Assembly: GCA_025363455.1 (NCBI GenBank)
Contig: JANYDW010000065.1
Location: 1 to 64,000 of the forward strand
DNA from: Oleiharenicola sp.
GTDB lineage: Bacteria; Verrucomicrobiota; Verrucomicrobiia; Opitutales; Opitutaceae
DNA: 64,000 bases
Direction of reading: 5' to 3'
The notes below the pieces were generated by a model. That model searched no databases. It saw only the letters and a program-made list of their open reading frames with translations, and had not been told where the DNA came from. Positions 34,162 to 49,316 of the stretch are shown piece by piece; position 1 is the stretch's first letter, and the number at the start of each line of letters is the position of its first letter. A program made the position numbers and the translations under genes.

Positions 34162-35505
34162 ATGTCCCCCCTCACCTGGAAATCCCTCTCCGCTTCCGCC
34201 CGTAACGCCGCGCTTCAGCGCCCGGCGCAAAAGGCGCAGAAGCGGACCGCCGTCATTGTGGCGGGGATCCTCGGGATCGTCCGGCGCGGGGGCGACCGAG
34301 CCTTGCGCCGTCTCACGGCGAAACTCGACGGCGTGAGGCTCACTTCGCTGCGTGTGAGTGCGGCCGAGTTCGCGGCGGCGGAACGGATGCTCAAGCCCGC
34401 GGACAAGGCGGCGTTGCGCGTCGCCTACCGCAACCTGCGCAAGTTTCACCTTGCCCAACGCCCGGCACCGATTCGCGTCGAGACCACCCCGGGCGTGGTG
34501 TGCGAAAAGGTTTCGCGCCCCATCGAGTGCGTCGGCCTTTACGTGCCGGGCGGCAGCGCGCCGTTGTTCTCCACTGCGCTGATGCTCGGCGTGCCATCGC
34601 AAATCAGCGGAAACTCCGTGCGCGTCCTCTGCACGCCGCCCGGGCGTAACGGCAAGGTCAGCCCGTGGATTCTCTTTGCCGCGCGGCTCTGCGGGATCAT
34701 GGAGGTCTTCAAGGTCGGCGGCGCGCAGGCGATCGCTGCCATGGCCTACGGCACCAAGAGTGTACCAAAGTGCGACAAGCTCTTCGGGCCGGGTAATTCG
34801 TTTGTCACTGAGGCGAAGCTCCAAGTCTCGCGTGATGCTGCCGGCGTCGCCATCGACCTGCCGGCCGGACCCTCCGAAGTGATGGTCATCGCCGACAATT
34901 CCGCCGAGCCCGCCTTTGTCGCCGCCGACTTGCTCTCCCAGGCCGAACATGGCCCGGACTCGCAGGTCGTGCTCGTGGCTTTCTCCGCCAAGTTAGCCGC
35001 CCGCGTGCAGGGCGAGGTGGACCGGCAACTCGCCCTCCTCCCGCGCGGTGCCATCGCTACCCGAGCCCTGGCCAACAGCCGCGTCATCCTCGCCGCTTCC
35101 CCCGCCGAGGCCGTCGAGATTGCCAACCGTTACGCGCCCGAGCACCTGATCCTGCAGGTGAAGAACCCGCGCGCGCTGCTGCCAAAAATCACTACCTCCG
35201 GCTCGGTCTTCCTCGGTGCCTGGACGCCCGAATCGCTCGGCGACTACGCCAGCGGCACCAACCACGTCCTCCCGACCTATGGCTGGGCGCGCGCCTGCTC
35301 CGGCCTGGGTCTCGCTGATTTCCTCCGCACGATGACCGTGCAAACGGCCAGCCCGCGCGGCCTGAAGAAACTCGGCCCCGTGGTCGAGCGCCTCGCACTG
35401 GCCGAAAACCTTGCCGCTCACCAGCGCGCCGTGCGCGTGCGCCTGGAGAAATTAACTGTAGCGGCGGTCCATGACCGCCGTAAAAACAACCGCCGGCGGT
35501 CATAG
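34162..35505 (+). CDS. hisD: Histidinol dehydrogenase
   Basis: The 447-residue enzyme catalyses the last two oxidations, histidinol to histidine. Family blocks include CVGLYVPGGSAPLFSTALM, VGGAQAIAAMAYGT, DLPAGPSEVMVIAD, LLSQAEHGPDSQVVLV and GSVFLGAWTPESLGDYASGTNHVLPT with Zn-binding residues. The last 15 residues (VAAVHDRRKNNRRRS) and the stop codon are supplied by an inverted repeat starting at 35458, so the native C-terminus has been replaced. hisC begins 14 bases after the stop. Confidence 0.96.
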   Translation: MSPLTWKSLSASARNAALQRPAQKAQKRTAVIVAGILGIVRRGGDRALRRLTAKLDGVRLTSLRVSAAEFAAAERMLKPADKAALRVAYRNLRKFHLAQRPAPIRVETTPGVVCEKVSRPIECVGLYVPGGSAPLFSTALMLGVPSQISGNSVRVLCTPPGRNGKVSPWILFAARLCGIMEVFKVGGAQAIAAMAYGTKSVPKCDKLFGPGNSFVTEAKLQVSRDAAGVAIDLPAGPSEVMVIADNSAEPAFVAADLLSQAEHGPDSQVVLVAFSAKLAARVQGEVDRQLALLPRGAIATRALANSRVILAASPAEAVEIANRYAPEHLILQVKNPRALLPKITTSGSVFLGAWTPESLGDYASGTNHVLPTYGWARACSGLGLADFLRTMTVQTASPRGLKKLGPVVERLALAENLAAHQRAVRVRLEKLTVAAVHDRRKNNRRRS

Positions 35506-35515
35506 ACCGCCGCTC
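35458..35515. repeat. Inverted repeat GTAGCGGCGGTC at the hisD end
   Basis: GTAGCGGCGGTCCATGACCG and CGGCGGTCATAGACCGCCGC are reverse-complementary arms with inner palindromes. It covers the hisD stop codon and ends just before the hisC ATG. Confidence 0.9.
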
Positions 35516-35519
35516 CCGC

Positions 35520-36584
35520 ATGACCCCCGTCGAACAAGTCCTTGCCCTGGTGCGCCCCGAGATTCTCGCACTCGCGCCCTACAGCTCGGCCCGCAAGGAG
35601 TCGAAGGGCGGCCGCGTGTGGCTCGACGCCAATGAGAACCCCGAGACCCCTTCGGTACACAAGCCGTTGCTCAATCGCTATCCCGATCCGCAGCCACCGG
35701 AACTCATCGCCAAGCTTGCCGCGCTTTACGGCATCGCGCCCGCGCAGGCGCTGGTGACGCGGGGCTCCGACGAGGGCATCGACCTGCTTCTGCGCACCTT
35801 CTGCCGCGCGGGGCAAGACGCCATCCTCATCACGCCCCCGACCTACGGCATGTATGTCGTCGCTGCCGGTATCCAGAACGCCCGCGTCGTGTCCGTGCCG
35901 CTAATCCGGGAGAAGAACTTCGCCCTCGATGCCGACGCCGTGCTCAAGTCCGTTTCATCCGAAGTGAAGCTCGTCTTCCTTTGTTCGCCTAACAATCCCA
36001 CCGGCAACCTGCTGGACCGCGCCGCGGTGCTCCGGATCGTGCGCTCGCTCGCCGGCAAGGCCGTCGTCGCCGTGGATGAAGCGTATGTGGATTTCTCCGG
36101 CGTCCCCAGCCTGGCGGCCGAAATCGCCGCCAACCCCAACCTTGTCGTGCTGCGCACGCTCTCCAAGGCCTTCGGCCTCGCCGGGGCCCGCGTCGGCACG
36201 ACCATCGCCGACCCGGCCGTCATCGCCGTCCTCCAGAAGGTAATCGCGCCCTACCCGGTGCCATCCCCCGTGCTGATCGCGGCGCTTGCTGCGTTGTCCG
36301 CCGACGGCCTGACCGCCGCGCAGGAATCGGTGCGCCAGCTCGTCGCCGAGCGGGCGCGCCTGTCTTCCGAGCTGCCGAAACTGGCCGCCGTGAAACGCGT
36401 GTGGCCGAGCGATTCCAACTATCTTCTGATCGAAGTCGCCGACTCCGCCCGCGCCATGGCCGCCGGCCGCGCCGCCGGCATCATCTGGCGCGACCGCAGC
36501 AAGGACGTCCCCAACACTGTCCGGATCACCGTCGGCACCGCCGAGGAAAACAATTCAACCCTGGAGGTTTTGTCCCGTGTGTGA
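35520..36584 (+). CDS. hisC: Histidinol-phosphate aminotransferase
   Basis: The 354-residue PLP aminotransferase converts imidazole acetol phosphate to histidinol phosphate. LDANENP (about 35-41) is the substrate-proximal start of the family. Others are CSPNNPTGN, VDEAYVDFSG, and TLSKAFGLAGARVG with the PLP Lys at 216. The ATG at 35520 follows the repeat at the end of hisD by four bases, so any native ribosome site lies within the repeat arm. Confidence 0.95.
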   Translation: MTPVEQVLALVRPEILALAPYSSARKESKGGRVWLDANENPETPSVHKPLLNRYPDPQPPELIAKLAALYGIAPAQALVTRGSDEGIDLLLRTFCRAGQDAILITPPTYGMYVVAAGIQNARVVSVPLIREKNFALDADAVLKSVSSEVKLVFLCSPNNPTGNLLDRAAVLRIVRSLAGKAVVAVDEAYVDFSGVPSLAAEIAANPNLVVLRTLSKAFGLAGARVGTTIADPAVIAVLQKVIAPYPVPSPVLIAALAALSADGLTAAQESVRQLVAERARLSSELPKLAAVKRVWPSDSNYLLIEVADSARAMAAGRAAGIIWRDRSKDVPNTVRITVGTAEENNSTLEVLSRV

Positions 36585-36633
36585 TGTTTGCCCCACCATG
36601 ATTCTCGACTTTCAAACCCCACTCCCGCGGCCC

Positions 36634-36716
36634 GTCATCCTGAGCGGAGCGAAGGATCCAAGGGAACGGACCGGCGCACGCCTCCCGCTTGGATCCTTCG
36701 CTCCGCTCAGGACGAC
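36634..36716. repeat. Dispersed inverted repeat (CATCCTGAG family) between hisC and hisB
   Basis: GTCATCCTGAGCGGAGCGAA and TTCGCTCCGCTCAGGACGAC are matching arms with GGATCC next to each. Confidence 0.95.
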
Positions 36717-36758
36717 GGTGGCGAATGTTTGGTTGGTTATCGGAAATCCTAACCGCCC

Positions 36759-37823
36759 ATGAAAAAAATTCTCTTCCTCGACCGCGACGGCACGCTCATC
36801 ACCGAGCCCGCCGACTATCAGATCGACCGCCTCGACAAGTTCGCGCTCGAGCCCGAGGTCGTGCCCGCCCTGCGCCGCCTGCGCGACGCCGGCTACACCT
36901 TCGTGATGGTCACCAATCAGGACGGACTCGGCACCCCGAGCTTCCGCGAGGCGGAATTTCGTCCGCTGCAGAACCTGCTGCTCGACATCCTCAAGTCCCA
37001 GGGCATCGCCTTCGAGGCCGTGCGCGTGTGCCCGCACACCACCGCCGACCGCTGCGACTGCCGCAAGCCCAAGGTTGGCTTGCTGCTCGACTACTTGAAG
37101 GACACCTCGTGGTCGCGCGAGAATTCCTATGTCATCGGCGACCGCGAGACTGATCTCCAACTCGCGACCGCGCTCGGCACGCAGGGCCTGCGCTACCACC
37201 CCAAGACGCTCGGCTGGACGGAAATCGCCCGCCAGATCGCCGAGGCCCTGCGCCGCGCCACCATCGCCCGCCAGACAAAGGAAACTAAAATCTCCGTAGC
37301 CGTGGACCTCGATGCCGTCGCGCCGGTCAAGTTCGCCACCGGCCTTGGTTTCTTCGACCACATGCTCGACCAGATCGCGCGCAACGCCGGCATCAGCCTC
37401 GTCATCGAGTGCACCGGCGACCTGCACATCGACGAGCACCATACGGTCGAAGACGTCGGTCTCGCGCTGGGCGCGGCCCTTAAGCAGGCCCTCGGTGACA
37501 AGCGCGGCATCGGTCGCTACGGCTTCACCATGCCCATGGACGAGGCCAAGGCCGAGGTCGCGATCGACCTGAGCGGCCGGCCGTTCTTTGTTTTCGAAGG
37601 CAAGTTCCCGCGCGAGAACGTCGGCCAGCTGCCGAGCGAACTCGTGCCGCACTTCTTCCAGTCGCTGGCCACCACGCTGGGCGCGACCCTCCACATGTCC
37701 GTCAAGGGCGACAACACCCATCACATGATCGAGGCCCTGTTCAAGGGCTTCGGCCGCGCCTTGCGACCCGCCCTCGCCCGGGGCGCCGGCAGCGACATCC
37801 CCAGCACGAAGGGTGTTCTCTGA
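36759..37823 (+). CDS. hisB: Bifunctional histidinol-phosphatase / imidazoleglycerol-phosphate dehydratase
   Basis: The 354-residue fusion joins an HAD phosphatase domain (DRDGT at 8-12; CPHTTADRCDCRKPK with zinc ligands) and the IGP dehydratase domain (about 165-354: GFFDHMLDQIARN, DEHHTVEDVG, SKGVL-like STKGVL end). The length equals that of the enterobacterial bifunctional HisB. The fusion is best known from Gammaproteobacteria and the Bacteroidetes group, so finding it here is informative about operon history. It carries out two non-consecutive steps of the pathway. Confidence 0.95.
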   Translation: MKKILFLDRDGTLITEPADYQIDRLDKFALEPEVVPALRRLRDAGYTFVMVTNQDGLGTPSFREAEFRPLQNLLLDILKSQGIAFEAVRVCPHTTADRCDCRKPKVGLLLDYLKDTSWSRENSYVIGDRETDLQLATALGTQGLRYHPKTLGWTEIARQIAEALRRATIARQTKETKISVAVDLDAVAPVKFATGLGFFDHMLDQIARNAGISLVIECTGDLHIDEHHTVEDVGLALGAALKQALGDKRGIGRYGFTMPMDEAKAEVAIDLSGRPFFVFEGKFPRENVGQLPSELVPHFFQSLATTLGATLHMSVKGDNTHHMIEALFKGFGRALRPALARGAGSDIPSTKGVL

Positions 37824-37858
37824 TGCGCGCTCGTTTTCAGCTTGGCGCGGCAGCGCCG

Positions 37859-37922
37859 GTAGGGGCGGACCGCCGGGCCGTCCGCGCATGTTCTTACGGC
37901 GCGCCCAGCGGTCGCGCCCTAC
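37859..37922. repeat. Inverted repeat GTAGGGGCGGACCGC between hisB and hisH
   Basis: GTAGGGGCGGACCGCCGGGC and GCGCCCAGCGGTCGCGCCCT-ACC are the arms. It is closely related to the element at 39388. Confidence 0.9.
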
Positions 37923-37935
37923 CTCTTTGCACCCC

Positions 37936-38529
37936 ATGCTAGCCATTGTCGACAGTGGTGGGGCCAACATTGCCTCGGTGCGTTTCGCGCTCGAGCGCCT
38001 CGGCGTGCAGAGCGAACTCACGGCTGATCCGGCAATCATCCGCGCGGCGGAGCGCGTCATCTTGCCCGGTGTCGGTTCGGCCCCGGAGGGCATGAAACGC
38101 CTGCAGGCGAAGGGCCTCGTCGAAGTCGTCCGTGGCCTGCAGCAGCCCGTGCTCGGCATCTGCCTGGGCATGCAGCTGCTCTTCGAGGCTTCCGAGGAGG
38201 GCAACACTCCGTCGCTCGGAATCATTCCCGGCCGCGTGGCTCTGCTGCCCGAGTCGCCCGGCATCACGGTGCCGCACATGGGCTGGAACACGCTCACGAG
38301 TCGCCCGGACACCCCGTTGCTGGAAGGCTTCGATGCCACCACCCGCTTCTATTTCGTCCACAGTTTCGCCGGCCCGGTGAATGCGTTCACCGTCGCCAGT
38401 TGCGAGCATGGCACGCCCTTCGCCGCCGTCGTGCAGCGCGGCAACTTCTCGGGCGTGCAATTCCACCCCGAGCGCTCCGGCCCGGCCGGGGCGCAGCTGC
38501 TTAAAAACTTTTTGGAGATGCCGGTATGA
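37936..38529 (+). CDS. hisH: Imidazole glycerol phosphate synthase, glutaminase subunit
   Basis: The 197-residue class I glutamine amidotransferase has the nucleophile C76 in LGICLGMQLLFEASEEG and H177/E179 in FHPERSG completing the triad. It supplies ammonia to HisF. The start MLAIVDSGGANIASV is the usual N-terminal strand (normally IVDYGxGN), with Ser replacing the common Tyr. The ATG at 37936 follows an inverted repeat by 13 bases. Confidence 0.95.
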   Translation: MLAIVDSGGANIASVRFALERLGVQSELTADPAIIRAAERVILPGVGSAPEGMKRLQAKGLVEVVRGLQQPVLGICLGMQLLFEASEEGNTPSLGIIPGRVALLPESPGITVPHMGWNTLTSRPDTPLLEGFDATTRFYFVHSFAGPVNAFTVASCEHGTPFAAVVQRGNFSGVQFHPERSGPAGAQLLKNFLEMPV

Positions 38530-38545
38530 ACCTTTTTCTTTTCCT

Positions 38546-38624
38546 GTCATTGCGAGGAGCACAGCGACGAAGCAATCCATCTGGCTGGATCGCCACGCCC
38601 GGCTTTGCCGGGCTCGCGATGACA
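38546..38624. repeat. Dispersed inverted repeat (CATTGCGAGGAG family) between hisH and hisA
   Basis: GTCATTGCGAGGAGCACAGC on the left and GCTCGCGATGAC on the right, with an inner CCCGGC/GCCGGG hairpin. Confidence 0.92.
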
Positions 38625-38638
38625 GAAGGGAGGATGGC

Positions 38639-39367
38639 ATGATCATCTATCCCGCCATCGACCTGCGCGGCGGTCGCGTCGTGCGCCTCACCGAGGGTAA
38701 GTTCGACCAGGAGAAATCCTACGGCGACGATCCGCTCGCGGTGGCCCGGGGCTTCAAGGCTGCTGGCGCTACCTGGCTGCATGTCGTCGATCTCGATGGC
38801 GCCAAGGATCCAGCCAAGCGCCAAACCCCGCTCGTCGAGAAACTCGCTCGCGAGAGCGGCCTGCGCGTCCAGACGGGAGGCGGGATCCGTGACGACGCCC
38901 AGGTGGCCGCGCTGCTCTCCGCCGGCGTGCAGCGCGTGATCGTCGGCAGCCTCGCGGTGCGTCAGCCCGACCTCGTGCGTGGCTGGCTCATTTCTTTTGG
39001 CCAGGAAAAAATTATCTTGTCGCCCGACGTGCGCATCGACGACGCCGGTATTCCTCGCATCGCCGCCGCTGGCTGGCAGGAGACGACCGGTGTGGCGCTC
39101 AATGATTTCCTCACCGGTTACCTCCCCGCAGGCCTCAAGCATATCCTCTGCACCGACATCAGCCGCGACGGCAAGCTGACCGGCCCCAACACCCCGCTTT
39201 ATGCCCAGCTCGTGAAACAGTTTCCCTCCCTCGAAATCCAGGCCTCGGGCGGCGTGTCGTCGCTCGACGATCTGCGCAAGACCAAGGTGACGGGTGTGGC
39301 AGGCGTCATAGTCGGCCGCGCGCTCTACGAGAACAAATTTACGCTGCAGGAGGCTTTGGCATGCTGA
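38639..39367 (+). CDS. hisA: ProFAR isomerase
   Basis: The 242-residue TIM barrel isomerises ProFAR to PRFAR. The first catalytic Asp is D8 (IYPAIDLRGG) and the second lies in the CTDISRDG strand; GGGIRDDAQV and VIVGSLAV are phosphate-binding loops. ATG 38639 has GAGG five bases upstream, a clear ribosome site that decides the start. A GTAGG-type repeat follows before hisF. Confidence 0.95.
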   Translation: MIIYPAIDLRGGRVVRLTEGKFDQEKSYGDDPLAVARGFKAAGATWLHVVDLDGAKDPAKRQTPLVEKLARESGLRVQTGGGIRDDAQVAALLSAGVQRVIVGSLAVRQPDLVRGWLISFGQEKIILSPDVRIDDAGIPRIAAAGWQETTGVALNDFLTGYLPAGLKHILCTDISRDGKLTGPNTPLYAQLVKQFPSLEIQASGGVSSLDDLRKTKVTGVAGVIVGRALYENKFTLQEALAC

Positions 39368-39387
39368 CCGCCGGCGCGATTGACTTG

Positions 39388-39451
39388 GTAGGGCGGGACC
39401 GCTGGGCCCGCCGCGAACGCCCTTTCGGCGCGCCCAGCGGTCGCGCCCTAC
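39388..39451. repeat. Inverted repeat GTAGGGCGGGACCGC between hisA and hisF
   Basis: GTAGGGCGGGACCGCTGGGC on the left and GCGCCCAGCGGTCGCGCCCT-AC on the right. Confidence 0.92.
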
Positions 39452-39464
39452 CCCCCCTCCCCCC

Positions 39465-40232
39465 ATGCTAGCCCGCCGCATCATTCCTTGCCTCGATGTG
39501 CGCGATGGCCGCGTCGTCAAAGGCGTCCAGTTCCGCAACCACGTGGACATGGGCGACATCATCGAGCTGGCTCAGCGCTACCGCGACGAGGGCGCCGACG
39601 AGCTGGTGTTCTACGACATCACCGCCAGCAGCGACGGGCGCACGGTTTCGACCGAGTGGGTCACGCGCGTCGCCAAGGTCATCGATATTCCCTTCTGTGT
39701 GGCCGGCGGCATTCGTTCACTCGACGACGCCCGCAAGCTGTTGCACAGCGGTGCGGACAAAATTTCGCTCAACTCTCCCGCGATTGAAAACCCGGAGCTG
39801 CTCGGCCACCTCGCCGCGGAGTTCGGCTCGCAGTGCGTGGTCGTGGGCATCGACAGCCGCGCGGAGAATGGCGACTACTTGGTGAAGCAATTCACCGGCG
39901 ATCCGACCAAAACCCGCGGCACCCGCTGGCGGACCGTGGACTGGGCCCGCGAGGCGCAGAAGCTCGGTGCCGGCGAGATTGTGCTCAACTGCATGAACCA
40001 GGACGGCGAACGCAAAGGCTACGACCTGGCGCAACTCAAGCTCGTGCGTGCCGTGCTCACCATCCCGCTCGTCGCCTCGGGTGGCGCGGGCGCGCCGGAG
40101 CACTTTCGCGACGTGTTCCGCGACGCCGGCGTCGACGCCGCACTGGCCGCCTCCGTGTTCCACAGCGGCGCGATTCCCATTCCGAAACTAAAGCAGTATC
40201 TCGCCACCGAGGGCGTGATCGTGCGCCCCTGA
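39465..40232 (+). CDS. hisF: Imidazole glycerol phosphate synthase, cyclase subunit
   Basis: The 255-residue TIM barrel cyclises PRFAR to IGP and AICAR using ammonia from HisH. Catalytic D11 ([14 protein letters not shown]) and D130 ([13 protein letters not shown]) are present, as are FCVAGGIRS and [11 protein letters not shown] phosphate loops. It begins with the standard [11 protein letters not shown]. Spacing to hisA is 97 bases, nearly all repeat. Confidence 0.97.
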
Positions 40233-40237
40233 TTTTG

Positions 40238-40325
40238 AACCGCTAATCGTCGCTAATCCGCGCTAATTTCAAACCCGCCCCTCCCTCCGCCTCAATTAGC
40301 GTTCATTAGCGCCAATTAGCGGTTT
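40238..40325. repeat. Inverted repeat AACCGCTAAT between hisF and hisIE
   Basis: AACCGCTAATCGTCGCTAAT on the left and CATTAGCGCCAATTAGCGGT on the right; CGCTAAT/ATTAGCG units recur in each arm. Confidence 0.9.
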
Positions 40326-40332
40326 CTTTCTC

Positions 40333-40944
40333 ATGAAACTCCCTAAAATCGACTGGAAGAAAACCGACGGCCTCGTGCCCGCCATTGTGCAGGACGCCCG
40401 CACCCAGCAGGTGCTCATGCTTGGCTACATGAACGCTGCCGCGCTAAGAAAAACCGTCCGCAGCAAGAGGGTCACTTTCTTCAGCCGCTCCAAGCAGCGG
40501 CTCTGGACCAAGGGTGAGTCCTCCGGTAATTTCCTCAAGCTCGTCAGCCTCGAAGTCGATTGCGACAACGACACGTTGCTGGTCCAGGCCAACGCAGCCG
40601 GCCCGACCTGCCACCGCGGCACAGTGAGTTGCTTCGGCGACAGCGGCGCGACCGGCATCGGCTTCCTTGCTCAGCTCGATCAGGTGGTGGCCGACCGCAT
40701 CAAAAGCGGCGACAAGTCCAGCTACACGGTCCGCCTCGTGCGGGAAGGTGTCGCCCGCGTCGCCCAGAAAGTCGGCGAGGAAGGCGTCGAAACCGCGCTC
40801 GCCGCGCTGCAAAAGAAATCCAAGGAATTCACCGGCGAGGCCGCCGACTTGCTCTATCATCTCATCGTGTTGCTCCGGGCCAAGAAACTCTCGCTCGCTG
40901 ACGCCATCGCCGTGCTGGAAAAGCGCCACGCGCCAAAGAAGTGA
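40333..40944 (+). CDS. hisIE: Bifunctional phosphoribosyl-AMP cyclohydrolase / phosphoribosyl-ATP pyrophosphatase
   Basis: The 203-residue fusion has the HisI domain (about 1-110: VLMLGYMNAAAL, FFSRSKQRLWTKGESSGN, VDCDNDTLLVQA, GPTCHRGTVSCF with zinc-binding residues) and the HisE domain (about 112-203: KVGEEGVETALAALQ, EAADLLYHLIVLL). It performs steps two and three of the pathway. It is the last his gene; a truncated repeat of the CATCCTGAG family follows. Confidence 0.95.
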   Translation: MKLPKIDWKKTDGLVPAIVQDARTQQVLMLGYMNAAALRKTVRSKRVTFFSRSKQRLWTKGESSGNFLKLVSLEVDCDNDTLLVQANAAGPTCHRGTVSCFGDSGATGIGFLAQLDQVVADRIKSGDKSSYTVRLVREGVARVAQKVGEEGVETALAALQKKSKEFTGEAADLLYHLIVLLRAKKLSLADAIAVLEKRHAPKK

Positions 40945-41017: not shown

Positions 41018-43258
41018 TCACTTGCGCGCGGGCGCGGATTTCACCTCGGCGGCCTGCAGGTGCAGGAGCTTTAACTCGCCGGTGTGATAGTTGTGGCACT
41101 GCTGGCAGCTGGCGCCGGCCATCGTCGGCTGGTGGCAAGCCACGCAGGAGTTTTTCGTGAGCGGGGCGAAGCTGCTGTGAAAGGTCGTGCTGTCACGGCT
41201 GTCGCCAAACGCCGACGCATAGTCAGCCTTGAGGTCCATGACATGGCACGTGCTGCAACCCTGCACTCCCATGAGGCTGAAGTGCGGCGCATGCTTGAAG
41301 GTGGTGAACGGACGGTTCTGCGGCTGCGGGCGGGAAGTCAGCCAGTTGACCTGGCTGGTGTTGCCGACGCGGTCGGTGGTGTGGCATTTCATGCAGACGC
41401 CCGGAGCCTTGGGTGAGGCCAGCTCGGCGTAAATGGCCCGGGCCGCTGGCATCGTGTCGCTCGCCGAGGTTTCCAGCCAGGCCGTGAGAAATTCATCCGC
41501 GTGGCCGCTGGGCCGGTAATAAAGCGTGTAGGTGTTGTCGCGGCGATACCATCCCCCTTCCGCCACCCGCGCTTCCGCATCATCATATTCGAGGGTCGTG
41601 GCGGCGGACGGAGCCGGGGCCTTGCCGGTCACCGGCGCCGGCTTCACCGCGGCGGGCTCGTCCGCCAGCAAGTCATCCTTGTCCGGCGCCTTTGCTGGCG
41701 CGGGTTCTGCGAGCAGATCGTCGGACTCCGCCGCCTTGGGCGCAGCCACCGGGCCCGGGGCGCCGGCTTGGGCCACCGCACCTCGCGGTCGCACCCGCCG
41801 GGGCGCAGGCTTGTCCCCATGGCGATAGGCGGCGACTTCCGTCAGCAAGCGAGGCAGCCAGACCTGCTGGGCCGCCTGGAGGCTGTCCGCGGAGAAATTA
41901 CCCGTGTGCCGCGTGGAGCCCCGCACCCCCGCATAGGGATCGAGGCGCCGCATCATCACCTGCTGGCCCTGCGTGATCAGGTCGGCCAGTAGTCCCTTCA
42001 CGCTCCACACCAGCCGGGCGGCGGCCTTTTTCTGCGCCGGGGTAGCTGAGCTGAGGTCGGCGAGTTTGGCGGCGCCGAGATCAGCCAGGGCCTTCTGCGC
42101 GGTGGCATCCCCCTCGAGCATCCAGAGCATGAAGGGTGTGATTTCCCCCTCACAAAAATCCGGCCATTCCCCGACCGGCTCACCCGCAGCCTCCAACGCG
42201 ACGAGATCGACCTCGGGCAGACGGAGGAAAACCAGGCCCTTGGCGCTGGCGCGGCCTTCGCCCTCAATCTGGCCGGCGTGACACTGGGCACAGGTCTGCT
42301 CAAAATCTTTCACCAGCATTTTCCGGCCGTCCGGGGCGGGTTCATGGCAGTGGGCGCAGGAGGTTGGCGCGGTGGATGCCAGGCGAGGATCCGCGAAATG
42401 TTTCTGCCAGTGGGCCACATGGTCAAATTGCAGCCGGGTGCGGCGCGTGGACGGGTAATCGGTGAATTCCGGGTGACCTGAAGTGAAGCTGGCAAAGGGC
42501 GCCTGATGACAGACCTGGCACTGCTGGTCGGTGAGGTGCTGGATGTTCGCCTCCCGGCCATGGTGCTCCTGATGGCAGGTAGCGCAGGCGAGTTCGCTCG
42601 GATGGCCCGAGGCCAGCGGGTGAGCCACCTGTTGGACCAGCGGTGGCGGCGGGGCCTCCCCGCTCGTCCGCTTCTTGCCCAGTTCAAGCAACTGGGCTGC
42701 CGTCACGCCGTGGGCCAGACGGCCGTGGGCACCAAGGTCATGGCATTTGAGGCAAAGTTGGTTGTGGTCCTGGGTGCGCTGGGCGCGCTCGGCTGAGGTG
42801 AGCATGATGTGGCCCGTCTCGACGTGGCAGTCGGCGCAGCGTTGGGCAGACATGGCATGCGGGGCGGTTACGGGTCCCGGACTGGACCAGGCCGTGCGGG
42901 CCCAGCCCCAGAGAGCCAGGACCACCAGGCCAGCCGCCGCACTGACAGCGAACCAGGTCAGCTGGCGCCGGTGGCCGCGCAAGCTGCGTTGGGGTGTGCA
43001 GGGCGGCACGGGGCAACCGCAGGCGCCGTCGGGTTGTGGGCCGTGCTTGCAAGGACCGCCGAGAGAAATGGCCCGCGTGCAGACCCACCGGTCACCCTTT
43101 TTGGCCGGGAGGCACTGGCTGGTGGCCCGGCATTCACCCTTGCGGTCGGGGCCGAAAACACACGGACAACCCTCGGCGGCGCGGCCGCAGACCCACTCGT
43201 CCTGCGGGCGATCGTAGAGTTTGCGGTTGTGAATGATGCTTTGCAGCAGGCGGCGCAT
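41018..43258 (-). CDS. Decahaem cytochrome c with Cys-rich N-terminus and membrane anchor
   Basis: The 746-residue protein has ten CxxCH motifs: six between residue 141 and about 330, four from about 630 to 722, with a haem-free Ala/Pro-rich linker of about 300 residues. Ahead of its single membrane anchor (about 102-119) lies an unusual 95-residue segment with ten cysteines (24, 31, 33, 43, 49, 60, 70, 80, 82, 87) and two repeats of the form WVCxR...GP...G.C. This part would be cytoplasmic and could hold a metal centre. The haem part would be periplasmic. It is the last gene of a four-gene operon and probably passes electrons between the membrane partners and periplasmic acceptors. Confidence 0.85.
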   Translation of the reverse strand: MRRLLQSIIHNRKLYDRPQDEWVCGRAAEGCPCVFGPDRKGECRATSQCLPAKKGDRWVCTRAISLGGPCKHGPQPDGACGCPVPPCTPQRSLRGHRRQLTWFAVSAAAGLVVLALWGWARTAWSSPGPVTAPHAMSAQRCADCHVETGHIMLTSAERAQRTQDHNQLCLKCHDLGAHGRLAHGVTAAQLLELGKKRTSGEAPPPPLVQQVAHPLASGHPSELACATCHQEHHGREANIQHLTDQQCQVCHQAPFASFTSGHPEFTDYPSTRRTRLQFDHVAHWQKHFADPRLASTAPTSCAHCHEPAPDGRKMLVKDFEQTCAQCHAGQIEGEGRASAKGLVFLRLPEVDLVALEAAGEPVGEWPDFCEGEITPFMLWMLEGDATAQKALADLGAAKLADLSSATPAQKKAAARLVWSVKGLLADLITQGQQVMMRRLDPYAGVRGSTRHTGNFSADSLQAAQQVWLPRLLTEVAAYRHGDKPAPRRVRPRGAVAQAGAPGPVAAPKAAESDDLLAEPAPAKAPDKDDLLADEPAAVKPAPVTGKAPAPSAATTLEYDDAEARVAEGGWYRRDNTYTLYYRPSGHADEFLTAWLETSASDTMPAARAIYAELASPKAPGVCMKCHTTDRVGNTSQVNWLTSRPQPQNRPFTTFKHAPHFSLMGVQGCSTCHVMDLKADYASAFGDSRDSTTFHSSFAPLTKNSCVACHQPTMAGASCQQCHNYHTGELKLLHLQAAEVKSAPARK

Positions 43259-43272
43259 GGGTCAGTTCCGGG

Positions 43273-44094
43273 TTACAGCCGGTGCGAATAATGCAGGGCG
43301 AGCCACACATGGGCGGCGGTCAGCACGAGCATGCCATAGGTCAGCGGGATGTGGACGAACAGCCAGAGCTTCAGCAGGCGCTGGCCCGCGAGCTGCAGGT
43401 CGAGATTACGCTTCGCCTCAATCAGGTCCGCCAGCTCGCCGGCGAGGCTCAGCTCGGCCGGGTTGAGGTAGCGGCGGGCCAGCTCGAGCTCCTGCCTGAC
43501 GCGGTGAAACTCGCGGTCATCTCCCGTGAGAGGCGCCAGCAACGGCGGCACGCGGAGGAAATAAGCATGCAGCACCCTCAAATACAAATCCGCGAGGGTG
43601 GATGATTGGGTTTCGATTTCCCCGCGGCGCACCAGTTCCCGCACCTCCTCCGCCAGCTGTTGGCGCAGCCCGGCGATCCGCTCGTAGACCAGGCTTTCGC
43701 CGGAACGCACCAGGCGGGGCGGCAGCCAGCGACTCAACCAGAGGCCGAGGGCCCCGCTGGCCGCGACCAAGGCAAAAACCGCGGAGAGGACCAGCTCCAG
43801 CCGTCCATCGGGCAGCCGGACCCCGGTGTGCAGCACGAAGACAAAGCAGCCGAGCCAGCCCAGGTAGATGTGGGCTTGCATCCACGCACTGGCGCTCAGC
43901 AGCGGTAGGAACGGCAGTTTTTTTCGCGCATTGAAAAATGTCAGGACCAGCACGAGGCCCAGCAACAGCCACCCGGAATAAACCGCCACGGGCAGCAGGG
44001 CGATCCGGGCGAGCTGCCAGGCCAGGACCAGACCCAGCGCCAGCATCAAGCTGATCAGGGCAAGGAGCCAGCGGCGTGCGCGGAAGGTTTTCAT
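43273..44094 (-). CDS. Membrane cytochrome b-like protein
   Basis: The 273-residue protein has about six hydrophobic segments. Two helices each carry a His pair spaced 14 residues apart: AHIYLGWLGCFVFVLHTG and VHIPLTYGMLVLTAAH. This is the pattern of two b-haems bound across the membrane, as in cytochrome b561 or NapH/NosR-like quinone modules. A soluble helical insert (about 150-240) separates them. The ATG overlaps the stop of the FeS gene by four bases, so the proteins are likely coupled partners. It probably exchanges electrons with quinones between the FeS protein and the cytochromes. Confidence 0.72.
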   Translation of the reverse strand: MKTFRARRWLLALISLMLALGLVLAWQLARIALLPVAVYSGWLLLGLVLVLTFFNARKKLPFLPLLSASAWMQAHIYLGWLGCFVFVLHTGVRLPDGRLELVLSAVFALVAASGALGLWLSRWLPPRLVRSGESLVYERIAGLRQQLAEEVRELVRRGEIETQSSTLADLYLRVLHAYFLRVPPLLAPLTGDDREFHRVRQELELARRYLNPAELSLAGELADLIEAKRNLDLQLAGQRLLKLWLFVHIPLTYGMLVLTAAHVWLALHYSHRL

Positions 44095-45821
44095 CGCTTC
44101 AGCCAGTCGGTCAATTTGTCCCCTGCCCGCATGTCCGCCCGCACGAGGGCGTCATGGGGGCAGGCGTTCACGCAAGCGGGACCTCCGGGCTGGTCGATGC
44201 ACAGATCGCACTTGGTCGCCCGGCGGATGGGCGCGCCCGTTTCCTCCGTCACGACCGGCAGGCCGTCCTCATCGTGCAGCGCCACCATCTGGATGGTGCC
44301 GTAGGGACAACTGTTGGCGCAAATGCTGCAGCCGATGCAGGTGTCCGCATCGATGCCGACCAGGCCCTCGATGTTTTCGCGGTAGATGGCGCCCGTGGGA
44401 CAGCCGATCATGCAGACCGGGTCGACGCAGTGCATGCAAGCGCTGGCCACCATCACCCCGCTGGCCTCGGGGCCCTGCCGGATGAAGCGCGGGTTGTTGT
44501 CATGGGTGGCGGCACATGCCCGGACGCAATCATCGCAACGGGTACAGCGATCCAGGTCGATCAGCATGGTCGCCCGACCGTTGATGAAGCGCTGGGCGAC
44601 CATGAACTCGACCAGCTCGTCCGCCCCGCCCGCCCCGCCGGGCGATTCGGCCGCGAGCGTAAGCGTGGCCAACTGGTCCGGCGACAAGGCGGGCAGCACA
44701 TGCTGCTCGATCACGGCCGTGGGAATGAACAGCAGGTCCACGTAGCCGAGGGCGCGCAGGCTGTGCCGCAGCGCCACGTGTTCGCCCCGCCAGCCCGTGA
44801 CGATCTCGTGCAGGCCGAACACCTGGCCCTTGCCAAGATAACTCTCGGTGCGTTCCCCGTGATTGTACCGACAGCTTACCCGCGCAAAGCCGCTGCGCAC
44901 CAAGAGCAATCCGTTGGGATAGTCGCCCTCGCGGGCGATCAGCGGCTCCTTTTCCATGAGCTCGCGAGCACTGGCCTCACGCATCCGCTGGTAGGAGCTG
45001 TGCCAGTCAAATTCGCCGAAGGTCTCGAAGCGGGTGGCGTCGGCGATCAACTGCAGGGAGGTATCGGAGAGGTTCCACATCAGCGGTGTTTCCGCCAAGT
45101 GGCGCTTGAGGCTGCGCTCGCGATACCGCCCGTCGATGCGCTCTTTCCAGGCGGGCGAGTATTTGCGGATCTCGCGCAGGCCCTGCCAGCGGATCTCGAG
45201 CAACAGCACCTCCCCTTCGGCCACCACGGTGGCGGTGCGCGGCGTGCGGCCCAGCGCGGCGATTTCGCCAAAGAGCTCGCCCTCGCGGAGGATGATGCTG
45301 CGGTCACTATCGAGCACCCCAGGCACGTCTTGCAGGAAGATGCGGGTTTCCCCGCTCCGGCCGACGTGCAGCCCCGGCGGTGCCCCTCGGCGGGTCGCCG
45401 TCTCGGCATATTGCGGCCGGCTCAGCCAGCGTTTGAAACTGCCCCAGACCGACGGGCGGACGGGCGGCTGGCGGCCGAGCAGCTCAGCCGGCGGTTCCTT
45501 GGCCAGGACCTTCACCGCGCCATCCATGATGATGAACGCCGAGTGCCCGTAGTCCCCCCGCCGGACGATGATTTCGCCCGACAGGTATTGATGAAGCTTG
45601 GTGTCGTTCCGCAGGATGCCGCGGAGCGGGATGGCAGCGGGAAATTTTTCGGGCGCGGTATTGTAGAAAATGGGGTGCGCCATCACCAGGTCCACGTCCA
45701 TCTCCTTCATGTCCGGACTGAAGGGCTTGTCCCATCGTTCCGGCCCCGCCTGCCGGGTCGCCTGGGTGTAGGGCGCGTGGGATCCGGGCTGGATCGCGGG
45801 GCGGGTGGAGGACTTGGCCAT
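44091..45821 (-). CDS. Fusion of two cNMP-binding-like domains with a four-cluster ferredoxin
   Basis: The 576-residue protein starts with two cyclic-nucleotide-binding-like domains. The first (about 60-235) has EIIVRRGDYGHSAFIIMDGAVKVL and LFGEIAALGRTPRTATVV, with a roughly 70-residue insert; the second (about 275-400) has REGDYPNGLLLVRSGFARV. A DmsB/NrfC-like ferredoxin domain (about 419-576) follows, with four cubane sets: CTRCDDCVRAC, CMHCVDPVCMIGC, CIGCSICANSC and CDLCIDQPGGPACVNAC. No signal peptide, so it is presumably cytoplasmic. No molybdo-catalytic subunit accompanies it. The cNMP domains suggest that electron flow is gated by a ligand. Second gene of the operon. Confidence 0.85.
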   Translation of the reverse strand: MAKSSTRPAIQPGSHAPYTQATRQAGPERWDKPFSPDMKEMDVDLVMAHPIFYNTAPEKFPAAIPLRGILRNDTKLHQYLSGEIIVRRGDYGHSAFIIMDGAVKVLAKEPPAELLGRQPPVRPSVWGSFKRWLSRPQYAETATRRGAPPGLHVGRSGETRIFLQDVPGVLDSDRSIILREGELFGEIAALGRTPRTATVVAEGEVLLLEIRWQGLREIRKYSPAWKERIDGRYRERSLKRHLAETPLMWNLSDTSLQLIADATRFETFGEFDWHSSYQRMREASARELMEKEPLIAREGDYPNGLLLVRSGFARVSCRYNHGERTESYLGKGQVFGLHEIVTGWRGEHVALRHSLRALGYVDLLFIPTAVIEQHVLPALSPDQLATLTLAAESPGGAGGADELVEFMVAQRFINGRATMLIDLDRCTRCDDCVRACAATHDNNPRFIRQGPEASGVMVASACMHCVDPVCMIGCPTGAIYRENIEGLVGIDADTCIGCSICANSCPYGTIQMVALHDEDGLPVVTEETGAPIRRATKCDLCIDQPGGPACVNACPHDALVRADMRAGDKLTDWLKR

Positions 45822-45838
45822 GAGTAGACGGACCCGGA

Positions 45839-46873
45839 CTAGGGTGCGCCGAGGTGGTAGGGCTTGCCCCGGTATTGCGTGGCATCCGGCACCAAGGCAT
45901 CGATGCCGGCGAGTTGTTCGCCGGTCACCCGGGCGGCAAAGCTGCGCCCAAGCGAGGCGAGTTTGTCGGCGGCCTGGTTGAGCTCGGCCGCGTTGTTCAG
46001 GCGGAGATTGGTCGCCTGGGCGGTGCTGACAATCGCGGCGAGTTCGGGCGAGGGAGCCAAGGCTTGGATTTTTTCCAGCAGCTTGCGCGCCGCGTCGGTC
46101 TGGCGGGCAAGGGTCACCCCGAATTTTGCCTTCTCGGTGGCATGCGCCACCGCGCGGAAACCGAACTCGGTCTCCAAGATTAGCCCCACGACAAAAAGCT
46201 GGCGGCGATGCGCGGGCGTAGCCTCGGGATTTGCCGTGTTGTTCGTGTGGAGCATCGTGTGGCGGACCTCGCCCTGGTACCACGTAAGCAGGTTGAAGCC
46301 CACGCTGGCGGGCGAGTGGCCCCCGACGTTGACGGTCTTCTCGTCATTCATCAGGTGGCAGCCGTAACAGGCCGAACCAAGGGCATAGATATTGGCGGGA
46401 ATGATCATCCCCGCGCCGAGTGCTTGGGCCACCCGGGCGGTGCGATGGGCGGCCGATTCGGTCAGCTTGGTGACGCCTTTGCCGTAGTCGCCGTGGGTCT
46501 GTGCCCAGTCCCGGCCCGCGCCATGGCACGATTCGCAGGCGATGCCCGACGCGGGCTCGAGTATGTTCCCGCTCTCGCGGTTCAGGTAATGGCATTCCAT
46601 GCACAGCGGCTCGTGCTTGATCCGGCCCAGACCGAGTTTTCCCAACATGACCGCGGTCTCCGGCCGCCCTTGCATGGCGTTGAAGGTCTTGAAATGCGCA
46701 CTCTGTTTCCACGCCTCGATCTCCTGGATGTGGCACTCGGCACAAGACTCGGGCCCGCCGACTTTTTCCGGGTCGGGCCCGGCAACGGCGGACCGGCCGG
46801 AAAGCAGCATCACCACCACCAGCAGGGCGGCGGGAAGGAGGCGGAAGCCCCATGGACAAGACCTGATGGGCAT
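45839..46873 (-). CDS. Tetrahaem cytochrome c, c554-like
   Basis: The 344-residue exported protein has a signal peptide (about 9-31, LLPAALLVVVMLLSGRSAVA) and four CxxCH motifs (CAECH, CMECH, CESCH, CYGCH) in the first 175 residues. The rest is a helical tail. The spacing and the first motif GPESCAECHIQEIEAWKQSAH match the cytochrome c554 family, which handles electrons for nitrogen or sulfur oxyanion chemistry. It is the first gene of the operon, 17 bases before the cNMP-FeS gene and divergent from the flavin reductase. Its redox partner is unknown. Confidence 0.88.
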   Translation of the reverse strand: MPIRSCPWGFRLLPAALLVVVMLLSGRSAVAGPDPEKVGGPESCAECHIQEIEAWKQSAHFKTFNAMQGRPETAVMLGKLGLGRIKHEPLCMECHYLNRESGNILEPASGIACESCHGAGRDWAQTHGDYGKGVTKLTESAAHRTARVAQALGAGMIIPANIYALGSACYGCHLMNDEKTVNVGGHSPASVGFNLLTWYQGEVRHTMLHTNNTANPEATPAHRRQLFVVGLILETEFGFRAVAHATEKAKFGVTLARQTDAARKLLEKIQALAPSPELAAIVSTAQATNLRLNNAAELNQAADKLASLGRSFAARVTGEQLAGIDALVPDATQYRGKPYHLGAP

Positions 46874-47133
46874 GAATTAGGCCGTGATATGGGATGATTT
46901 TTTCCGTCGCCTCAAGGCTAAGATTGTGTCACGAAAAGTCAGCGCAAGCTGAAACTCCAAGTTAATCCATCAGTCCCGCGGCGGCCAAACCGCCGGTTCG
47001 TTTTGTCCCCTGCATGGACAGCGGCGCTGGGCCAGACTTGGGGCGGCTGAGACGCCTACTCTCCTGTGATCACTCCTTTTTTATCCCGCCTGGCCGCGAG
47101 GCACTGAACCGGTCGCGCTTCTGTCTCCCCCTC

Positions 47134-48393
47134 ATGTTCTGGACCTATCTGGGCATCGCGATGATTCTGCTGGTTGTCGCCCAGCTCGTCGTCAGTTTGC
47201 TGACCAACCTCCGGCGGAGCCGGATCGCGGCGGAACGCTCGGCTCTCGAGATTGCCCGTTTTACCGAGGATCTGGCGGTGGTGCGCGATTCCCGCCGGAA
47301 AGTGGCGCAGGAGCCGGTGCCATGGAATGGCTTTCGCAAGTTTGTCGTCCGGCGCAAGGTGGAGGAAAGTCCGTTGGTCCGTTCGTTCTACCTGGAGCCG
47401 CATGACTCCAAGCCGTTGCCGGCCTTCAAACCCGGCCAATACCTGACCTTCCGTTTGCCCAGCCTGAACCGCTTTGGCCAACTCATCCGCTGCTACAGCC
47501 TGAGCGATCGCCCGCTCCCGGCGCACTACCGGGTCACGATCAAGCGCGCCCTGCCGCCCGCCGGAAATCCCTCGGTGGTCTCCGGGCTCGGCTCTGGAAT
47601 TTTCCATGACCAGATCGAGGTGAACGACATTCTGGACCTGCGCGCGCCGGCGGGGAACTTTTTCCTCGATCCCGGCGACCCTGAGGCCGTGGTGCTCATC
47701 GGTTGCGGCATCGGCCTGACTCCGATTTACAGCATGTTGGCCACCCTGGTGCATTCGAAAAGCCGGCGGACCGTGTGGTTTTACTACGGGGTGCGCAATG
47801 GCGCCGAACACCTCTTTCGGACGGAGCTGGCGGCCATCGCCCGCGACCATCCGCATGTTCAGCTCCGCATCTGCTATTCCCAACCCGGGCCGGATGACCG
47901 CTTGGGCGAGGATTACCAGGTCCACAGCCGGGTGACGATGGAACTGCTCAAGAGCGAGCTGCCCTCGAACAATTTTCATTTCTACTACTGCGGCCCGGGT
48001 TTGATGATGGAATCCATGACCAATGGCTTGAAGGACTGGGGCGTCCCCTCCTCCCATCTGCACTTCGAGACCTTCGGGCCTCTCAGCGTTCAAAAGGTCA
48101 GCAAAGCTGTCGCGGGCGCCCCGCCCTTCGTGGTCCAGCAGAAGTTTGTCACTTTCCGCAAGAGCGGCACGGCCGTGCCCTGGGACGGATCGCACGCCAC
48201 GCTGCTGGATCTGGCCGAGCAATCGGGGGTGGTCATCGCGTCCGGGTGTCGCGCGGGCAACTGTGGCACCTGCGTCGTGGCCCTGCAGGAAGGCGAGGTG
48301 ACCTATATCCAGCCGCCCGGTACACCCCCCGAGGCCCGGACCTGCCTTACCTGCATCGCGCAACCGAAGGGCGACCTCGTGCTCGACGCGTAA
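47134..48393 (+). CDS. Membrane-anchored NAD(P)H reductase with FAD and [2Fe-2S] domains
   Basis: The 419-residue protein has one N-terminal membrane helix (about 3-25, MFWTYLGIAMILLVVAQLVVSLL), an FAD domain (PGQYLTFRL, RCYSLSDRP), an NAD(P) domain (VVLIGCGIGLTPIYSML, YYCGPGLMM) and a C-terminal plant-type ferredoxin with C372, C377, C380 and C404 (SGCRAGNCGTC and ARTC). This order resembles NqrF and flavohaemoglobin-type reductases. It should take electrons from NAD(P)H to an acceptor. It is divergent from the cytochrome operon across 260 bases and is a plausible electron source for it. I chose the ATG at 47134, in front of the helix. Confidence 0.88.
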   Translation: MFWTYLGIAMILLVVAQLVVSLLTNLRRSRIAAERSALEIARFTEDLAVVRDSRRKVAQEPVPWNGFRKFVVRRKVEESPLVRSFYLEPHDSKPLPAFKPGQYLTFRLPSLNRFGQLIRCYSLSDRPLPAHYRVTIKRALPPAGNPSVVSGLGSGIFHDQIEVNDILDLRAPAGNFFLDPGDPEAVVLIGCGIGLTPIYSMLATLVHSKSRRTVWFYYGVRNGAEHLFRTELAAIARDHPHVQLRICYSQPGPDDRLGEDYQVHSRVTMELLKSELPSNNFHFYYCGPGLMMESMTNGLKDWGVPSSHLHFETFGPLSVQKVSKAVAGAPPFVVQQKFVTFRKSGTAVPWDGSHATLLDLAEQSGVVIASGCRAGNCGTCVVALQEGEVTYIQPPGTPPEARTCLTCIAQPKGDLVLDA

Positions 48394-48596: not shown

Positions 48597-49316
48597 TTAT
48601 TTCGTCTCGGGCAGCGGCTCAAGCGTGACCCGGATAATCCCGCGCCAATCCTGGGCGGAATAATCCACCGCCTTGTCCTCAGGATAGAGGCGGTCCAGCG
48701 CTTCCTTCACCCCGGGACTGAATTTGGCGGGGTCGCCGTGGCAGGCCAGGCAGGACTTGGAGGCGGCAATGGGGCGATACACGCGCCATTCCAACGGCTT
48801 CCCGGGCATCTCGATTTTTTGCACGATGACCTTGTCGGGAGCGTCACCGGCAATCAATTGGGCGCGGATTCTCTTGAGGGCCGCCATATCGGCGCCGTCG
48901 GGAGCGTTCCGCGGATCGCGCAGCATCAGGCTGGTCCGCTTGACCGCCGTAACCTTGGGGCGACCGATCACCTGCTTGGGCAACTCCATGCCCTTGAGAT
49001 GCAGCTCACTGACCACCTGACGGGTCTCCTTCGTCGCCAGCTCCTTGGTCGTTTCGTTGACGAGCTTGCCCCCGATATCCTCGATGACCTTGGAACCATA
49101 GCGGCTCAAAAGAGAGACGGACGGATCAGCACTGTCCACGAAGGTGTAGATCGCGCCATCGGGGCGGGGGCCGGGGGGCAAGGAGTCATTGTCGAAATAC
49201 TCCAGGATCTTCATCGGGCCGACGGGGGTCGGTGTGGGCTCGGGCGCCGCCGGCAGGCTCGTGGCCAGCAAAACTATCGCAAGGGCAAGTCCGGCAGACT
49301 GTTTGGTTTCTCTCAT
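48597..49316 (-). CDS. Exported Tll0287-like (DUF3365) monohaem protein
   Basis: The 239-residue protein has a signal peptide (about 1-23, AGLALAIVLLATSLPAA) and one CLACH haem motif (C189, C192, H193) in YRPIAASKSCLACHGDPAKF, the signature of the Tll0287-like/DUF3365 haem fold. That fold often serves as a sensor or small carrier. The gene ends in a clear terminator. It lies beside the multihaem operon and the flavin reductase, so it may be part of the same electron-transfer network, but the strand arrangement shows it is a separate transcript. Confidence 0.87.
   Translation of the reverse strand: MRETKQSAGLALAIVLLATSLPAAPEPTPTPVGPMKILEYFDNDSLPPGPRPDGAIYTFVDSADPSVSLLSRYGSKVIEDIGGKLVNETTKELATKETRQVVSELHLKGMELPKQVIGRPKVTAVKRTSLMLRDPRNAPDGADMAALKRIRAQLIAGDAPDKVIVQKIEMPGKPLEWRVYRPIAASKSCLACHGDPAKFSPGVKEALDRLYPEDKAVDYSAQDWRGIIRVTLEPLPETK

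Follow-up and report, generated by a model that had tools for sequence, protein, structure and literature searches.

The window analysed here, i.e., the whole stretch of 64,000 nucleotides at positions 1 to 64,000 of contig JANYDW010000065.1 of Oleiharenicola sp., carries four linked genes, called TETRA, FES, CYTB and DECA below, and a divergent fifth gene, FNR (Table 1). By their content these genes would encode an inner-membrane complex for NAD(P)H-driven electron export, probably tuned by a cyclic nucleotide, a reading to which we give a probability of roughly 0.6. The parts, their conservation and their linkage are read from sequence, and from these we infer the direction of flow, haem ligation, complex formation, acceptor and gating. 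In the proposed path, NAD(P)H would be oxidised by the membrane-anchored flavoprotein FNR through its FAD, and electrons would pass from the [2Fe-2S] cluster of FNR to the four [4Fe-4S] clusters of FES. From FES they would cross the membrane through CYTB, whose two b haems would be bound by His pairs on two helices, to the ten c haems of DECA. Beyond DECA they would pass to TETRA and further multihaem proteins of the periplasm or outer membrane, and many relatives would extend the chain with a barrel-like protein, another multihaem cytochrome or both. A cyclic nucleotide bound to the first cyclic nucleotide monophosphate (cNMP) domain of FES would probably switch or tune electron entry, and this gating is the boldest and least secure step of the mechanism.

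Table 1. Positions in the window of the module genes, their landmarks and neighbouring features (aa, amino acids)
Feature	Position	Strand	Description
TETRA	45839..46873	-	tetrahaem c554-family cytochrome, 344 aa, 4 CxxCH, signal-like N-terminus
FES	44091..45821	-	576 aa, predicted cytoplasmic; two cNMP-type domains and four [4Fe-4S] motifs
Phosphate-binding cassette, FES cNMP domain 1 (FGEIAALGRTPRTATV)	45225..45272	-	F184, G185, E186, P194, R195 and T198 invariant, 13 sequences
Four CxxC-type [4Fe-4S] motifs of FES	44160..44546	-	Cys 426-554; 16 Cys invariant
CYTB	43273..44094	-	273 aa, predicted membrane cytochrome b
DECA	41018..43258	-	746 aa, 10 CxxCH; membrane-anchored decahaem cytochrome, haem part predicted periplasmic
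DECA N-terminal Cys-rich domain	42998..43189	-	Cys 24, 33, 43, 49, 60, 70, 80 and 87; before the transmembrane helix, predicted cytoplasmic
DECA single transmembrane segment	42896..42967	-	residues 98-121, hydropathy
Intergenic element TTTCAGCTTGCGCTG	46940..46954	-	lies in the TETRA-FNR gap; may be an operator or promoter element
FNR	47134..48393	+	membrane-anchored NAD(P)H/FAD/[2Fe-2S] reductase, divergent from TETRA
TLL	48597..49316	-	Tll0287-like monohaem protein, PF11845 55.1 bits; beside FNR

An original prediction, made from the sequence of the window alone, had proposed an undescribed set of four linked electron-transfer genes lacking a catalytic subunit. The open reading frames (ORFs) confirmed the linkage, with all four genes on the minus strand, spacings of 17, -4 and 14 bases in the order TETRA, FES, CYTB, DECA, and 4 + 10 CxxCH motifs in the two c-type cytochromes. 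The predicted fusion of cNMP domains to four [4Fe-4S] motifs in FES was likewise borne out by Pfam, with PF00027 (cNMP_binding) at 85.7 bits against a cut-off of 27.5 and matches to Fer4 families as well, and all 16 cluster Cys residues were invariant in an alignment of 13 homologues. No description of the gene set was found in the open-licence full-text literature, the sole library searched. The divergent FNR gene, the Cys-rich N-terminus of DECA and the Tll0287-like gene TLL had been overlooked.

A scan of named genomes confirmed at least 483 relatives. Synteny was counted in the best 80 loci, and counts given over 89 loci are these 80 plus nine further ones, with one double, since L025 is the same contig as L088. 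The 80 loci bear the labels Verrucomicrobiota, Planctomycetota, Alphaproteobacteria, Nitrospinota, SAR324, Mariprofundus, Poribacteria, Chloroflexi and others; the Chloroflexi-labelled row branches beside a proteobacterial row in the FES tree, and that label may be wrong. Nearest to the window in the same tree were loci labelled Lacunisphaera, Opitutaceae and Verrucomicrobia. Among the 65 loci whose downstream sequence runs to 3.5 kb or more, 63 had FES-CYTB-DECA in consecutive order. Because the same gene order recurs across phyla, the gene set is far beyond chance, and the view that it is electron-transfer-like, lacks a catalytic subunit and is kept together across phyla was supported. Of the two exceptions, L112 has FES alone on an 8 kb contig; in L070 (Bythopirellula polymerisocia) the 442 kb contig of the locus also carries, ~52 kb off, a CYTB-DECA pair with ten CxxCH in its DECA, so that a broken operon keeps its parts. 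Where the upstream sequence was 2.5 kb or longer (68 loci), TETRA or a relative was near FES in 65; in 51 it lay upstream in the orientation of FES and in 14 it was divergent, the divergent group being mostly longer three-CxxCH relatives (~370-420 aa, 23-32% identity). In genome G121 two module copies, L028 and L031, were seen to be frame-broken, with FES and CYTB split in L031 and FNR and DECA in L028; either assembly errors or decay would explain them. Further, the FES proteins of a metagenome-assembled genome labelled Minwuia thermotolerans and of Kordiimonadales IMCC3096 (L101, L108) were nearly identical, and the Minwuia label is probably wrong.

The original prediction had named quinone or NAD(P)H as the electron source. 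FNR matched PF00175 and PF00111 above the Pfam cut-off, and its 2Fe-2S Cys residues 412, 417, 420 and 447 were conserved in 64 sequences (63 of 74 cluster members after length filtering, plus the window). Its ORF opens at 47014; the start at 47134 is likely, because the Met there matches the ATG site of relatives L036-L039. The FNR gene was present in 51 of the 53 loci longer than 15 kb, and in 65/80 of all, which suggests NAD(P)H, by way of FNR, as the electron source of the module and favours the NAD(P)H half of the prediction over the quinone half. We consider it unlikely that the module is a quinol-linked or reversed conduit, in which CYTB would react with the quinone pool, or NAD(P)+ would be reduced by electrons pushed in from periplasmic donors. 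In favour of such a conduit, quinones are frequent reaction partners of di-haem b subunits, an electron wire can in principle run either way, and locus L049 bears the label Mariprofundus, the name of an iron-oxidising genus. However, a quinol-driven outward wire would not need the FNR that long loci keep, and uphill NAD+ reduction would need an ion-pumping subunit, none of which was seen among the twelve recurring neighbour clusters read.

CYTB, predicted as a four-His membrane subunit, has Trp71, His75, His89, Lys242, Trp244, His248 and His262 at 1.00 conservation in 67 sequences (66 of 79 length-filtered cluster members plus the window). In an AlphaFold2 model with a predicted local distance difference test score (pLDDT) of 94, His75 and His89 are on helix 68-90 and His248 and His262 on the last helix (212-270), with a helical insert at 137-212; the model and hydropathy together suggest five transmembrane helices. 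The insert is probably cytoplasmic, judging from the positive loops of CYTB, and would be a natural dock for FES. Ferric reductases and NADPH oxidases join an NAD(P)H-FAD domain to a membrane part that has two pairs of His at a spacing of 13 residues, and CYTB has the same HX13H...HX13H pattern of two His pairs. The module would then resemble these enzymes in an NAD(P)H-FAD part and two His pairs in a membrane part. Unlike them, it consists of separate proteins, has a 2Fe-2S and four 4Fe-4S clusters between the two parts and a decahaem outlet, and gave no Pfam membrane-domain match. The likeness is the ground for another reading, i.e., that the module uses NAD(P)H to reduce Fe(III) for uptake and is not respiratory, with CYTB and FNR as the two halves of a ferric-reductase/NADPH oxidase-like enzyme; the hosts are for the most part not known to respire metals. 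We give this reading very little credence, given that CYTB lacks the Pfam ferric-reductase membrane domain and that no siderophore or TonB-receptor gene was recognised among the twelve neighbour clusters. Indeed, CYTB had no Pfam match above cut-off at all, the nearest being DUF4405 at 16 bits against 26.7. Its sequence gave seven chance-level matches in the PDB, and 0 of 146 Foldseek matches to its model were at E < 0.001.

The two c-type cytochromes and a cassette protein, c6, described below, look like wires of six-coordinate haems rather than enzymes, because further invariant His residues, presumed ligands, nearly equal the haems: 4/4 in TETRA, 9/10 in DECA and 5/5 in c6. The counts come from 73 TETRA sequences (72 of 79 length-filtered members plus the window), 74 DECA sequences (73 of 86, filtered by length and at least 10 CxxCH, plus the window) and 10 c6 sequences. 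TETRA matched PF13435, the cytochrome c554 family, at 50.4 bits against a cut-off of 20.8, and was similar to cytochrome c554 1bvb (E 7e-8); it fell below the cut-off of the NCBIfam c554 equivalog, at 41.6 against 400 bits. For the N-terminal domain that marks the CymA and NapC/NirT proteins (PF03264), TETRA scored 13.0 against a cut-off of 24.1 and no DECA match was listed in Pfam. Thus TETRA is like Nitrosomonas cytochrome c554 in its Pfam family and its alignment with 1bvb, and unlike it in having further invariant His available for all four haems and an equivalog score far below cut-off. These matches, with that of c6 to the solved cytochrome c552 5ze8 (E 2e-13), are what could be said for TETRA or c6 being a terminal reductase of a soluble substrate, e.g. 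a nitrogen oxide, fed by the rest. That arrangement seems improbable to us: the equal numbers of further His and CxxCH make no open haem evident in either protein, the same-genus locus L022 has no TETRA, and 14 loci have a weakly similar, mostly three-CxxCH substitute.

Haem domains of c-type cytochromes must be periplasmic, and since DECA has only one transmembrane segment, its Cys-rich domain should be cytoplasmic. The eight Cys residues are 0.97-1.00 conserved in the 74 sequences and are arranged as two similar halves. No Pfam family was found for this end of DECA; metallothionein was considered and rejected, the sole Pfam match having E 0.71. A profile of the domain gave exactly one match per genome in 11/11 genomes, at coordinates fitting DECA (checked for L070). 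The domain could be a Zn or Fe-S site, or a dock. The model of DECA was of low confidence (pLDDT 63), with 0/29 fold matches at E < 0.001, and its haem parts were not interpreted. Acidic DD(L/I)(L/I) repeats were also noted in the linker of the window's DECA and in the N-termini of c6 proteins, e.g. at L045:3355-5724 and L094:3894-5894. At least two copies were present in 12/86 DECA and 9/32 c6 (L025 and L088, one contig, both counted) and in 0/736 other ORFs; the repeat is possibly a docking motif common to the two proteins.

The original prediction had extended the path to extracellular acceptors. Barrel-like and/or extra multihaem cassette genes were found in 49/89 loci. The gene for c5 (~495 aa) was in 34/89 and that for pentahaem c6, with 5 CxxCH, in 32/89, both being present in 29. 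Distances of c5 and c6 correlated with each other at rho 0.87 and with the core at 0.15-0.31, which points to an exchangeable cassette. Twelve loci had c10 (~790 aa) and/or c11 (~1280 aa, ten haems) instead. As read from sequence, c5 and c10 would be outer-membrane barrels; Pfam gave nothing for the c5 of L053, one sub-threshold match for that of L107, and a sub-threshold match to PF13372 for c10. In L026, L103, L105, L111 and L115 a c11-type ten-haem protein adjoins a 790 aa barrel-like protein, with 72-78% identity among the five aligned, and the one c11 member scanned has LVIVD repeats. An extracellular outlet is thus favoured in relatives with a barrel-like plus multihaem cassette. For the window it is not: none of c5, c6, c10 and c11 was found there, the search being for these known cassette genes and not for unrelated barrels.

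Several observations weigh against export by such a complex. Neither the window's genome, which is 95% complete, nor three same-genus genomes gave matches to c5, c6 or c11 (c10 was sought in the window only), while positive-control genomes matched, three of them in the c5/c6 search. Together, the c5/c6 genome searches and the L070 pair make it more secure that this genome lacks the cassette and, in favour of the complex, that the core genes belong together functionally. Since no solved structure resembles CYTB in sequence or fold, its number of haems is read from the spacing of His residues. The distribution of the set is patchy as well. CYTB matches were found in 23/150 family genomes, and among the seven same-genus genomes listed, four had CYTB, the window's among them, and three had none. 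In a phylum sample, 14 of 288 genomes, the window's included, matched FES at E <= 1e-20, and three of these are distant relatives (L033-L035). Pairwise-distance correlations favour the complex for DECA-CYTB (rho 0.71) and DECA-TETRA (0.69); against it, they were lower for TETRA-CYTB (0.41), and for FNR were only 0.22-0.30 with CYTB, DECA and TETRA, and 0.56 with FES. Finally, several hosts are cultured marine bacteria that are not known for extracellular respiration.

A module driven by NAD(P)H may further be gated, as the original prediction proposed, by a ligand, probably a cyclic nucleotide acting through domain 1 of FES. A phosphate-binding cassette with Glu and Arg is a mark of cNMP-binding domains, and domain 1 has a canonical one. 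The strict cassette pattern was present in 68/86 FES proteins, and Glu plus Arg were retained in 84/86, including 16 of the 18 without the strict pattern, by eye from the listing, and even relatives of ~30% identity. This conservation, and cyclases linked to the module in some clades, favour gating. On the other side stands domain 2, which is degenerate and has lost its cassette in the close family; in addition, Gln replaces the Arg of the cassette in L067, and no match was obtained for L059. A Thr following the Arg is a feature of domains that prefer cyclic guanosine monophosphate (cGMP), and the best solved cNMP matches to FES were cGMP-dependent kinases; together these are a weak pointer to a cGMP preference. 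At L035:9204-11717 a single 837 aa protein combines Fer2 and Fer4 domains with cNMP-binding domains and another set of Fer4; cNMP-ferredoxin fusions occur in other settings too.

Class III cyclases numbered 17 genes, where 2.6 were expected, and fell in 16 of the 67 loci counted, 13 of the 80 loci, all under ~9 kb, having been left out. The 12 planctomycete loci had 7 against 0.14 expected and the remaining 34 loci 8 against 0.9, while the 21 Proteobacteria-labelled loci had 2 against 1.5, i.e., no enrichment. The expectation combines genome counts by Pfam with locus counts by a home-made profile, so that two detection methods enter it; the first 20 genomes were chosen partly after cyclases had been seen, two of the 17 matches are weak (L080, L094), and the SAR324 genome holds 88 cyclases. 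A Poisson value computed for the excess should for this reason not be taken as a true probability. FNR and the cyclase are adjacent and divergent in seven planctomycete loci, ignoring small ORFs (60-72 aa), and these seven form one clade in the FES tree. In five verrucomicrobial loci (L073, L078, L086, L097, L102) the cyclase is downstream, and the one scanned has a CHASE2 domain. Judged on this clustering, the linkage would amount to about two informative events, not seventeen. Gating is further weakened by the confinement of the enrichment to planctomycete and verrucomicrobial loci, and by the position of the window genome's own 8 cyclases, which are not beside the operon, the nearest being ~49 kb away. 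The cNMP domains might instead be structural or dimerisation modules, with no nucleotide gating the flow. We put this alternative at somewhat poorer than even odds. The loss of the domain 2 cassette, the exceptions L067 and L059, the 51/67 loci without a linked cyclase and the unenriched Proteobacteria speak for it; the retention of Glu plus Arg in domain 1 and the enrichment of cyclases beside the module in two other groups speak against it. In the fullest version of the gated export complex, direct binding of a second messenger by the ferredoxin subunit would turn NAD(P)H-driven flow to outside acceptors on and off, and a new metal or Fe-S domain at the cytoplasmic end of DECA would aid transfer or docking; we offer this version tentatively and think it rather doubtful.

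The nearest known systems share parts of the module. The CbcL/MtoC/MtrH inner-membrane multihaem quinol oxidases also link the membrane to periplasmic carriers with a multihaem c domain and a di-haem b part. They are described in PMC6295460 as a single fused protein with mostly six transmembrane segments, for which quinol use is proposed. Unlike them, the module has separate genes, a predicted five transmembrane helices, an added ferredoxin-cNMP protein and an NAD(P)H reductase. Many relatives resemble the porin-cytochrome conduits (MtrCAB, OmbB-OmaB-OmcB and the Verrucomicrobia porin-multihaem cytochrome clusters) in having a barrel-like gene and/or multihaem cytochromes beside the module, while the window, unlike these conduits, has no known cassette gene. 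Nearest in the literature found are the clusters that He et al. 2017 described from Verrucomicrobia (PMC5615132), in which a porin of at least 20 transmembrane motifs goes with an octahaem protein; they differ from the module in the haem number and porin described. The C-terminus of FES has the four-cluster pattern and 16 Cys of ferredoxin subunits of the NrfC/DsrO/HycB type. FES is unlike these in its fusion to two cNMP-type domains, and the window's block has no molybdoenzyme or NrfD partner. Against named four-cluster subunits FES scored 66.4 against 200 for DsrO and 65 against 214 for DmsB, and the best 25 of 63 equivalogs were all below cut-off.

The outward electron conduits known so far are generally considered to draw on quinol and to be controlled through gene expression. 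The module, by its gene content, starts from NAD(P)H and has a nucleotide-sensor domain inside the electron path. It appears, from the open-licence literature, to be new as a gene set and represents a possible new regulatory principle, which, if true, would be a direct post-translational switch on respiration. It occurs in several phyla and in some cultured strains, e.g. Hwanghaeella grinnelliae and Bythopirellula polymerisocia, assigns a likely job to cytochromes of a so far unnamed family, and brings to light a Cys-rich domain for which no description was found.

Between TETRA and FNR, the core TC(A/G)GCTTGCGC of the intergenic element was found in the window and in 5/5 aligned relatives, among them L022, where TETRA is missing at this place; L037 shares all 15 bases. 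The element has one copy in the 4.2 Mb genome at no more than 1 mismatch, but its 13-base core, at no more than 2 mismatches, occurs 9 times in the window against 2.9 expected. Three patterns gave no FNR or CRP boxes near the intergenic region, and Megablast gave no plasmid match to the region. The TLL gene was present in 5/5 near-relative loci (L022, L036-L039), and in near relatives only; it is a candidate member of the electron-transfer system. Before the module, the plus-strand gene run at 34162-40944 of the window is, we presume, for histidine biosynthesis (hisC, hisB, hisH, hisA, hisF, hisIE), as judged by sequence features. Elsewhere, a protein cluster, c8, recurs near the module in 13 loci (L029, L030, L032, L076 and others), and the member scanned has HbpS-like haem-degrading domains.

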